Under the pieces are notes generated by a model, which was not told the DNA's origin, made no database searches, and saw only the letters and a list, made by a program, of their open reading frames with translations. Made by a program: the position numbers and the translations under genes. Below, in pieces: positions 6,207-20,118 of a stretch of 64,000 nucleotides of DNA. Every line of letters begins with the position of its first letter. The first letter of the stretch is position 1. The DNA comes from Ciceribacter lividus (GTDB lineage Bacteria > Pseudomonadota > Alphaproteobacteria > Rhizobiales > Rhizobiaceae): contig NZ_QPIX01000002.1 of assembly GCF_003337715.1 (NCBI RefSeq), forward strand, positions 310,001 through 374,000. The letters are read 5' to 3'.

Positions 6207-6235
6207 AAAAAAAAACAAGGTCGTATGACCTTGTT
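6207..6235 (-). terminator. Intrinsic terminator of the sRNA
   Basis: Nine-base-pair perfect stem with a GTAT/ATAC loop and a nine-base T run on the minus strand. On the plus strand the T tract is only two or three bases, so it acts mainly for the minus strand. Confidence 0.8.
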
Positions 6236-6354
6236 TGAAAGTATCGCGTGATCCTTAACCTGTTACGGGGCAGCGAACGGGCGCGCCAAAGATCTGATCC
6301 TCCCAAGATTTAACCGCGAGTACGGCAAGAATTTAAGCTCCTTGCCTGTTTTGT
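6207..6354 (-). ncRNA. Probable alpha-r9 (Smr9C-like) trans-encoded sRNA
   Basis: A canonical intrinsic terminator is visible in minus orientation: nine-base stem AACAAGGTC/GACCTTGTT with a four-base loop at 6214-6235, then a run of Ts (A-run 6207-6215 on the plus strand). Upstream on the same strand there is GTGACA (plus 6384-6389), 16 bases, then CTAGCG (plus 6362-6367), placing the start near 6354. That gives an RNA of about 148 nt. From memory, the S. meliloti sRNA Smr9C (about 149 nt) lies in this same interval beside proS. No reading frame fits, and neither neighbour is on the minus strand. Confidence 0.7.
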
Positions 6355-9319: not shown

Positions 9320-10021
9320 ATGCCGCTTTCCATGGCCACCGACAAAGTCCTCGCGCTTACCGGGATCGATCGCAATTACGGGCAGGGCGAGACGCTGCTG
9401 AGCATCCTGAAGGGTGCCGAATTCAGCCTCGAGAGCGGCGAGACGGTGGCGCTTGTCGCCCCGTCGGGAACGGGCAAGTCGACGCTTCTGCACGTCGCTG
9501 GCCTGCTCGAGCATCCCGACGCCGGCGAAGTCGTGATCGGCGGGGAAGCCTGTTCGGGGCTCTCCGAGGACCGCCGTACCGCCGTGCGGCGGCGCTCGAT
9601 CGGCTTCGTCTACCAGTTCCATCACCTGCTGCCGGAATTCTCCGCGCTCGAGAACATCATGATGCCGCAGCTCATCGCCGGGCTTTCCATGGCCGAGGCC
9701 AAGGAGCGGGCCACGCAGCTTCTCGACTACATGCGGATCGGCCACCGTGCCGACCATCGGCCGGCGGAGCTATCGGGCGGCGAACAGCAGCGCGTGGCGA
9801 TTGCCCGCGCCGTCGCCAACGCGCCGCTCGTGCTGCTCGCCGACGAGCCGACTGGCAATCTCGACCCGGAGACGGCATCCTACGTCTTCTCCGCTTTGCG
9901 TGCGCTGGTCCGCCAGTCGGGGCTCGCCGCGCTGATTGCCACCCATAATCACGAACTGGCCCAGCGCATGGACCGCTGCGTGACGATCGTCGACGGCAAA
10001 ATCGTCGATTACGCGGTCTGA
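9320..10021 (+). CDS. lolD: Lipoprotein-releasing ABC transporter ATPase LolD
   Basis: Cytoplasmic ATPase that powers lipoprotein release through LolC/E. 233 residues from ATG 9320. The Walker A motif is APSGTGKST, the ABC signature [13 protein letters not shown] and Walker [12 protein letters not shown]. The start is ambiguous: ATG 9320 lies two bases after the lolC stop with no room for a ribosome site, while ATG 9332 (MATDKV) has AAGGA eleven bases upstream and would give 229 residues. Confidence 0.94.
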
Positions 10022-10197
10022 GACGCTTCCGGACGGCCGCGGCGACGACAGCCGCGGTGCCGGCGCAAACTGCCGCCAACGTTCCCGCTCCTTTGTCTTC
10101 GCCCGGCGAGAGCCCCTGCAGGGGCGCGCCGTAGTCGCGTTGCCCCTATGTTCGCGCGCATTCGCGTCGTTGATCGAACCATATGACCCTTTTTGGG

Positions 10198-10226
10198 TTG
10201 ACAAAGGAACAAAGAGGGAACAAAAT
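10198..10226 (+). promoter_or_regulatory. Promoter with embedded LexA (SOS) box
   Basis: A perfect TTGACA (10198-10203) and a CAAAAT -10 (10221-10226) are separated by 17 bases. Between and overlapping them lies GAAC-AAAGAGG-GAAC (10207-10221), the exact direct-repeat LexA box of alphaproteobacteria. A repressor bound here would block RNA polymerase, so the downstream small gene should be induced by DNA damage. The site and spacing are seen directly; regulation is inferred. Confidence 0.8.
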
Positions 10227-10253
10227 AAAAACATAACGAGTAAGGAGTGAGCC

Positions 10254-10340
10254 ATGACTGATGTTTTCCGTGATGTCGCCGCATTCGCCTCGATCCTCAT
10301 GTTCGTCACCGGCTTGTCGGTGATCGTCTCGGCGATTTGA
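10254..10340 (+). CDS. 28-aa SOS-controlled membrane peptide (SidA-like)
   Basis: A short frame of 28 codons preceded by TAAGGAG seven bases before the ATG. Residues 1-8 are polar (MTDVFRDV). Residues 9-28 form one uninterrupted hydrophobic helix ending VIVSAI, so a single-pass inner-membrane peptide is expected. It is the first frame after a promoter holding a LexA box (10207-10221). Caulobacter SidA is a 29-residue, SOS-induced membrane peptide that blocks division; size, topology and control match, though I cannot check homology. It lies about 100 bases upstream of dnaE1, with no terminator seen between them. Confidence 0.8.
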   Translation: MTDVFRDVAAFASILMFVTGLSVIVSAI

Positions 10341-10444
10341 GGTTCCTGCGCCTATCCTGTAGAGAGTGACCCGTATCCGGCCGACAAGGCTGGACTTCCC
10401 TGTCGGGGCGACCGAAAATCGCGCCGATTCATCGGATGCGGGCA

Positions 10445-13942
<3,498 letters not shown>

Positions 13943-15494: not shown

Positions 15495-16778
15495 CTACTT
15501 TCGCCGCCCGAAGGTGTAGCCGGTCTCGACCGTCGACTTGCCGAACTTGTCGCGCAGCGTGTCCATTGCAGCCTCGGCGGCAGCACGTCGGCCGGCCTGC
15601 TCGTCGACGAGGTCCGGCGGGTCGGCGACAGAGGCTTCCTTGAGGTCGGTGACGCCGATGCCGATCAGCCGGAAGCGCGTGCCGTCCGTCTCCTTTTCGA
15701 GCAGCGTCAGGCCGGTGCGGAAGATGCGGTCGGCGAGCTGGGTCGGATCCTCCAGGCGCCGGTTGCGCGTGCGGCCCTTGAAGTCCGCCGTCTTGAGTTT
15801 CAGGACGACGGTTTGCCCCGATATTCCGTGCTTCTTCAGCCGCCAGGCGACCTTTTCCGAGAGTGCCCGCAGGTGGATGACGAGATCGTCGTGGCGGCTG
15901 ATGTCCTCGAAGAATGTGGTTTCGGCGGAGACGCTCTTCGCCGCCTCGTTCGGGTGGACATCGCGATCGTCGATACCGCGGGAAAGCCTGTAGAGCCGCT
16001 GGCCGATCGAGCCGTAGCGGCGCATGAGATCGGTTTCCTCCATGGTCTGCAACTGCCCGACGGTGCGGATGCCGTCGCTTTCGAGCGTCGCCGCGAAGGC
16101 CTTGCCGACGCCCCAGATCGTCGTCACCGGGCGCGGGGCGAGGAAATCCAGCGCCTCCGCCTGGCCGATCACGGAAAAGCCGCGCGGCTTCTGCAGGTCG
16201 GAGGCGACCTTCGCCAGAAACTTGCAGTAGGAGAGGCCGACGGAGACGGTTATGCCGACCTCCTGCTCGACACGATGGGCAAAACGGGCAAGCACGCGTG
16301 CCGGCGGATCGTGGTGGAGCCGCTCGGTGCCGGAAAGCTCGAGAAAGGCCTCGTCGATCGAGAGGGGTTGAACGAGCGGGGTCAGTTCCTCCATCATCGC
16401 CCGCACCTCGCGTCCGACGCGGGCGTATTTCTCCATGTCCGGCTTGATGACGACGGCCTGCGGGCAGGCCTCCAGCGCCTTGAACATCGGCATCGCGGAA
16501 CGCACACCATGGATGCGCGCGATATAGCAGGCGGTCGAAACCACGCCGCGCTTGCCGCCGCCGATGATCACCGGCTTGTCGGCGAGTTCCGGATTGTCCC
16601 GCTTCTCAATGGAGGCATAGAAGGCGTCGCAATCGATGTGGGCGAGCGTGAGCCTGTAGAGTTCCGGATGATAGACGAGCCGGGGGCTGCCGCAGCCGCT
16701 GCAGCGACGATTGCCCTGCGGCTGCCCTCTGAAGCAGTCGCGGCAGAAGCCTGGATACGCGGTCGGGTCGGTTGTCAT
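15495..16778 (-). CDS. dinB: DNA polymerase IV with N-terminal zinc-ribbon-like extension
   Basis: Error-prone Y-family polymerase for lesion bypass. 427 residues. It starts with an extension carrying C12, C15, C26 and C29, a probable zinc ribbon absent from E. coli Pol IV. The palm motif [21 protein letters not shown] and the catalytic [11 protein letters not shown] follow, then the little-finger domain. I do not see an obvious QLxLF-type clamp-binding tail at the very end. A perfect LexA box lies six bases upstream of the ATG, so SOS control is expected. Confidence 0.93.
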
Positions 16779-16783
16779 CGCTG

Positions 16784-16798
16784 GAACAAATGTTGAAC
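16784..16798 (-). promoter_or_regulatory. LexA (SOS) box upstream of dinB
   Basis: On the minus strand GTTC-AACATTT-GTTC (plus: GAAC-AAATGTT-GAAC), a perfect direct repeat with seven-base spacing. It ends six bases before the dinB start codon, so LexA would cover the transcription start. Confidence 0.82.
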
Positions 16799-19910: not shown

Positions 19911-19989
19911 CGAGTTGCGCGAGTTTGACGTCACCGAAGAACAAGGCCTCGGGAGAGGCCGGATATACCCCATGATGCTCAGGTCCGCC

Positions 19990-20118
19990 GCATCTCCTGG
20001 GTCGTGGGGTCGGTCGGTTGGCATGCTACAAACGCGGTTCCTCGTACCGCAGGCATGCTGGCCGACCCCCAATCGAACGAGAAAGCACCGCGATCCGGTT
20101 ACGGAGCGGTGCTTTTTT
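19990..20118 (+). ncRNA. Structured sRNA between pleD and rpmG (EcpR1-like?)
   Basis: A long nested hairpin is seen: GGGGTCGG (20006-20013) with CCGACCCC (20062-20069), GCATGC (20021-20026) with GCATGC (20053-20058), and GCGGT (20034-20038) with ACCGC (20046-20050). A strong intrinsic terminator follows at 20082-20118. No gene on the plus strand explains that terminator. The S. meliloti cell-cycle sRNA EcpR1 (about 100-125 nt, regulating dnaA and gcrA) is, as far as I recall, encoded in this part of the chromosome; the size fits. The 5' end is not fixed. Confidence 0.6.
20082..20118 (+). terminator. Intrinsic terminator of the pleD-rpmG sRNA
   Basis: AAAGCACCGC (20082-20091) pairs with GCGGTGCTTT (20106-20115), followed by T residues to 20118. 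It is a textbook rho-independent terminator for the plus strand. Confidence 0.85.

Follow-up and report, generated by a model that had tools for sequence, protein, structure and literature searches.

A SidA-like membrane peptide gene with a predicted LexA operator lies directly upstream of dnaE in Ciceribacter lividus

Does the short open reading frame in front of dnaE in Ciceribacter lividus encode a rhizobial counterpart of SidA, which, according to the available text of PMC4211646, inhibits cell division in Caulobacter by acting on FtsW? We addressed this question in a window of 64,000 nucleotides, i.e. the whole stretch of C. lividus DNA analyzed here, together with genomes of the same genus, family, order, and class. 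The original prediction, made from the letters of the window, had proposed that dnaE is linked to an SOS peptide resembling SidA.

A sigma-70-type promoter was located at positions 10198–10226 of the plus strand, with TTGACA at 10198–10203 and CAAAAT at 10221–10226 separated by a 17-nt spacer. It scored 10 of 12 consensus matches and was the sole promoter-like site within 9900–10700 (shuffle mean, 0.1). The promoter had been described as perfect, which is correct for the −35 element but not for the −10 element, as CAAAAT is weak. GAAC-N7-GAAC was found in the spacer as described, at 10207–10221 of the plus strand (GAACAAAGAGGGAAC); it occupies most of the spacer and shares one base with the −10 element. 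The ribosome binding site TAAGGAG (10241–10247, plus strand; AGGAG in the genus consensus) and a 28-codon frame with one membrane helix were likewise present. This frame runs from ATG to TGA at 10254–10340 of the plus strand and translates as MTDVFRDVAAFASILMFVTGLSVIVSAI. The peptide has one hydrophobic stretch at residues 10–28, with a best 19-residue Kyte-Doolittle mean of 2.27, and is charged at positions 3, 6, and 7 only, so that the helix is uncharged. The gene for the DNA polymerase III alpha subunit, dnaE (10436–13942, plus strand; NCBIfam NF004226, 1528.1 bits), starts 95 nt after the peptide stop and is probably transcribed together with the peptide gene, as the downstream part of one unit. 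The only terminator-like match within 9900–10700 was inside dnaE (10482), and an Rfam scan detected no RNA family at the peptide locus. The upstream neighbor, lolD (9320–10021, plus strand), which lies outside the unit, scored 257.5 bits with TIGR02211, under the cut-off of 307.75. It marks a conserved locus, as it was present at all 30 genus loci checked (of 63) and also near the Caulobacter locus.

GAAC-N7-GAAC occurs five times in the 64-kb window (shuffle mean, 1.99), and a lone site is weak evidence because five or more were reached in 9 of 100 shuffles. The window also contains eight ATG frames of 20–40 amino acids with a membrane-like stretch, among which the frame at 10254–10340 alone is closely preceded by AGGAG or GGAGG. 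Since it is the sole such frame, and since promoter, box, and frame are all kept across 63 genomes, their combination goes beyond chance.

The conservation of the locus was investigated in the genus. A search with the window peptide gave a match in all 63 genomes, and all 63 loci were included in the analysis. The ATG start and the length of 28 amino acids were invariant. The box was exact at 46 loci, and matched in 7 of 8 bases at 14 and in 6 of 8 at the remaining 3. TTGAC was observed 54–57 nt upstream of the ATG at every locus, at −56 or −57 in 61 of them, and as exact TTGACA in 44. dnaE was identified downstream at 62 loci; the remaining one (L264) ends at a contig edge. The frame and its linkage to dnaE, for which the original prediction had suggested a conservation check, were therefore both confirmed. 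The mean pN/pS of the 54 different ORF sequences was 0.34 when read in frame, and 0.88 and 3.9 when the frame was shifted. Among 34 loci (one per distinct peptide), codon position 2 carried 1.84 bits and position 3 carried 0.87. An unconserved frame between conserved flanks had been named as the pattern that would speak against the peptide; the opposite was observed, as conservation dropped from 1.33 bits per column within the ORF to 0.13 in the 92 columns downstream, these being ungapped columns in which indels deepen the drop. The 28-codon frame is a real gene under purifying selection as a protein. Peptide and dnaE are separated by about 93–366 nt, and none of the 63 loci showed a perfect stem of at least 6 pairs with a T-run in this gap. 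This gap (10341–10435 in the window) is otherwise little conserved, and CTGGACTTC was found within 150 nt downstream of the peptide at 43 of the 63 loci.

We then consider the control of the gene. The source genome encodes LexA, and its lexA gene carries GAACACATATGGAAC, which is also GAAC-N7-GAAC and begins 62 nt upstream of the ATG. The same motif read on the opposite strand, GTTC-N7-GTTC, is the published Caulobacter LexA motif in the available text of PMC12700426. The box before the peptide is a predicted LexA operator, to which LexA would bind. A regulon study listed dnaE among the genes reported to be SOS-regulated in Caulobacter (PMC3323433); the text available from this study names dnaE by itself and makes no mention of the peptide that separates it from the box. 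A paper on transcription start sites of Sinorhizobium meliloti (PMC3616915) contained no text on dnaE or LexA. Elsewhere in the window, a GAAC-N7-GAAC at 16784–16798 lies just before the minus-strand gene of an IMS-family (DinB/Pol IV type) polymerase (15495–16778), and at this position it is likely to be another target of LexA, some 6.6 kb away from the box of the peptide gene. In nine relatives (L018, L297–L299, L302, L310, L311, L320, and L321), the box is doubled, with two copies that overlap at a spacing of 11 nt (GAAC-N7-GAAC-N7-GAAC), which could provide a tighter LexA switch.

A peptide of 29 amino acids was also identified upstream of dnaE in Caulobacter (L125). It matched the NCBIfam model NF033228 (div_inhib_SidA) with 72.3 bits against a cut-off of 35, spanning residues 1–29 of 29. 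The genus of this locus, g417, was assigned to Caulobacter because the DnaE of locus L154, labeled 'uncultured Caulobacter sp.', is 94% identical to the DnaE query from g417. At L154, a divergent inosine-uridine nucleoside hydrolase gene (PF01156) adjoins the peptide gene. In the available texts, sidA is CCNA_02004 (PMC10769358), CCNA_02005 is an inosine-uridine nucleoside hydrolase (PMC3667746), and Caulobacter dnaE is CC1926 in another numbering scheme (PMC1839093). As the CC and CCNA numberings differ, the adjacency of sidA and dnaE comes from the loci and not from print. Based on the NF033228 match, the hydrolase neighbor, and the locus numbers, the Caulobacter peptide was identified as SidA. 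Within the genus, 72 of 75 genomes encode it. The original SidA paper is reportedly Modell 2011.

The Caulobacteraceae, the family of G711, were reached through a ParB chain, PDB 6t1f, which we take to be ParB of C. vibrioides. A dnaE-upstream peptide was present at all 30 loci of this family, although several peptides escaped the hydropathy filter and were recovered by the motif or by reading the DNA. The exact box lay within 800 nt of dnaE at 20 loci and was absent from this range at the other 10. NF033228 proved to be narrow, as its score within the family drops from 72.3 bits to 45.7, 35.3, 22.2, and 20.5 for four other peptides. The two lowest scores, both under the cut-off, belong to peptides of one genus (g186), whose five loci (L141, L148, L151, L152, and L153) encode dnaE-linked peptides of the SidA type. 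They are probably variants of SidA that would escape the model.

The window peptide itself gave no match with NF033228 (cut-off 35 bits) even at E 10, and none of the 18 members of the window-type profile A2 or of the 13 members of profile A4 matched. Relationships were nevertheless detected when profiles were compared with hhalign. The window-type profile A2 aligned with the SidA profile A3 with a score of 24.3 and a probability of 86.5%, and none of 200 column shuffles scored as high (best, 22.7). The scores were 21.3 for A1 with A3 (best shuffle, 18.1), 29.0 for A4 with A3 (17.1), and 37.1 for A2 with A4 (19.9), again with no shuffle among 200 as high; reversed-alignment controls scored 8.7–10.1. 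For so short a peptide, the relationship of A2 with A3 is suggestive, with a thin margin, and the margin is wider via A4. The g186 peptides below the cut-off, e.g. MARWVREMLSLASCGGFVWMAWQAALLAY, bridge the window form and the SidA form. In a hmmscan search, the window peptide also gave a sub-threshold match to DUF6405 (E 0.026), which was judged to be chance.

Both the window peptide and SidA are single-helix peptides (28 and 29 amino acids, respectively) encoded directly upstream of dnaE, and their residues R6, D/E7, A10, S13, and F17 coincide in an ungapped alignment, giving the pattern R-[DE]-x2-A-x2-S-x3-F. They also share GAAC-N7-GAAC in front of the gene, in the window and at the 20 Caulobacteraceae loci. 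In contrast, SidA has an FVWMM stretch that the window peptide does not have, and the flanking gene is the divergent nucleoside hydrolase at the L154 sidA locus and lolD in the window. Judged by position and distant similarity, the window peptide is a SidA-like counterpart outside the curated family as drawn. The proposal made in the original prediction was supported in that the dnaE-upstream peptide of Caulobacter is SidA by the NCBIfam model and the peptide groups match as profiles.

The distribution of related peptides was investigated at several taxonomic levels. In the family of C. lividus, 78 of 199 genomes, spanning 43 of 109 genera, matched at E 0.01, so that many genomes of the family have either lost the gene or carry a copy too diverged to match. 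Among 25 additional family loci, one of which (L312) is from the same genus, dnaE was linked in all 25 and the exact box preceded the peptide in 22; the L316 peptide was missed by the pattern search. Searches of the order (297 genomes) and of the class (385 genomes) were run at E 10 and 1. Their raw tallies, 196 of 297 and 158 of 385, do not represent prevalence, since most weak matches are chance, and linkage to dnaE was used as the filter. Sixteen of 29 new loci from the order search lay upstream of dnaE, with the exact box nearby in 14 of these, and 2 of 29 did so in the class search, one of which pointed to the order of Tepidicaulis. In this order (40 genomes), which we take to be Parvibaculales, a related peptide was observed at 26 of 30 dnaE loci, and the exact box was likewise counted at 26 of 30; the peptide was not found at L092, L098, L101, and L110, among which L098 and L110 are shorter than all other loci. 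The peptide of Tepidicaulis marinus (L156) is identical to that of L117.

Of at least 80 further dnaE loci, 37 were examined, and such a peptide was present at 6 (L154, L156, L157, L158, L174, and L185). No such peptide passed the filter at the other 31, which include Azospirillum and several other alphaproteobacteria, and some of which have little DNA upstream of dnaE or are non-alphaproteobacterial. The distribution is therefore wide, not universal. The dnaE-upstream peptides of Oceanicaulis sp. (L157, MRDLVQDITSATVIIGFITTALTLGAALVG) and Maricaulis sp. (L158, MRQMIKDVSAATAVLGFAWMVTVWGSVLAAV) look like additional members and have no NCBIfam match. None of the phage records matched a genus peptide. 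In a search of mobile elements, one Shinella record matched; it is a 4.6 Mb replicon with two annotated features in all, and its empty gene table is uninformative.

Translation at this position has been reported in a relative. In a ribosome profiling study of S. meliloti, sORF25 was found to be translated and to lie in the dnaE1 5'-UTR; the available text of PMC10117765 assigns no function to it. It occupies the same place as the window peptide and, from this position, would be the same gene; its report as a translated ORF located there speaks for translation and a shared transcript in S. meliloti. No publication connecting SidA with rhizobia or with dnaE was found in the open-access literature as available to us, where sidA, dnaE, LexA, and Caulobacter all appear in a single review, which treats them separately in its available text. 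Among the matches listed, none stood out as describing an SOS division inhibitor in rhizobia or Agrobacterium. The linkage of sidA and dnaE may already be known in the subscription literature.

Based on these results, we consider it likely that the window peptide gene is the rhizobial counterpart of sidA, i.e. a LexA-repressed gene whose product halts division after DNA damage and whose promoter probably feeds dnaE as well. LexA binding, induction, division arrest, the FtsW target, and cotranscription with dnaE are steps that we infer from the analysis as a whole. In the proposed model, LexA would occupy GAAC-N7-GAAC between the −35 and −10 elements and repress transcription. Upon DNA damage, RecA would trigger the cleavage of LexA and free the promoter, and a joint transcript of the sidA-like gene and dnaE would be produced. 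The peptide would then enter the inner membrane and keep the FtsW/FtsI septal wall synthase inactive, while extra replicase from dnaE would serve repair and restart. Similar actions have been proposed for two products of different genes, namely DidA, which acts on FtsW/FtsI/FtsN and whose control is LexA-independent (PMC4211646, available text), and YneA, a small-membrane-protein division inhibitor (PMC13396833, available text).

The action on FtsW was compared at the residue level. In Caulobacter, FtsW A31K suppresses SidA but not DidA, according to the available text of PMC4211646. A genome search identified one FtsW/RodA-family protein in the source genome, and in the alignment A31, F145, and A246 fall at their published numbers. 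F145 and A246 are conserved, whereas residue 31 is T, which counts against a simple carry-over of SidA action. This substitution and the differing helix sequence could mean that the peptide descends from a common ancestor with SidA but is no longer a division inhibitor in rhizobia, having acquired another membrane partner, e.g. in the polar growth machinery. That the genome search identified one FtsW/RodA-family protein and that Rhizobiales grow from the pole (PMC8546619, available text) fit such a change. We regard it as unlikely, as the core pattern R-[DE]-x2-A-x2-S-x3-F, the box, and the locus have all been kept, and FtsW F145 and A246 are conserved.

The proximity to dnaE raises another explanation, that the frame serves as a leader or upstream ORF; its translation would adjust dnaE expression in cis, and the peptide would be dispensable. 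The frame ends 95 nt from dnaE, and some sORFs of the kind found in the S. meliloti dnaE1 5'-UTR were suggested to be uORFs in the available text of PMC10117765. However, the amino acids themselves are under selection (1.84 bits at codon position 2, 0.87 at position 3), conservation drops after the stop in ungapped columns, to which indels contribute, and a distance varying from about 93 to 366 nt is ill-suited to translational coupling. With a Caulobacter counterpart that is a known FtsW-acting inhibitor (PMC4211646, available text), this explanation appears quite improbable. The length class and the SOS control resemble those of TisB and DinQ of Escherichia coli, and would suit a LexA-controlled membrane-active toxin of their type. 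Such toxins carry charges within the helix and are paired with an antisense RNA. Rfam lists no RNA at the locus. The charges of the window peptide are confined to positions 3, 6, and 7 outside its helix, and the gene belongs to the core of the genus, lies next to dnaE, and has no match in phage records. We regard a toxin of this type as highly improbable.

Returning to the sidA counterpart, we lean slightly towards the broader view that sidA-dnaE is an ancient SOS unit across much of Alphaproteobacteria, in which one LexA switch would stop septation and raise the replicase; by this range we mean the order of the window, the order of Tepidicaulis, and Caulobacterales and relatives. If this is true, rhizobia and their relatives have an SOS division inhibitor that has been concealed in the 5'-UTR of dnaE, and SidA shifts from a Caulobacter case to a principle across much of the class. 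The window peptide is a concrete, tiny candidate for the SOS division inhibitor of rhizobia, and its gene offers an explanation for a LexA site credited to the essential dnaE. Its likeness to SidA also suggests a function for the translated, unassigned sORF25 of Sinorhizobium, and a brake on division paired with the replicative polymerase provides a hypothesis on damage checkpoints.

Two RNA families were detected by Rfam on either side of the locus, ar9 (RF02343) at 6207–6354 of the minus strand and EcpR1 (RF02500) at 19965–20072 of the plus strand. The latter is a rhizobial cell-cycle sRNA according to the available text of PMC4414408.
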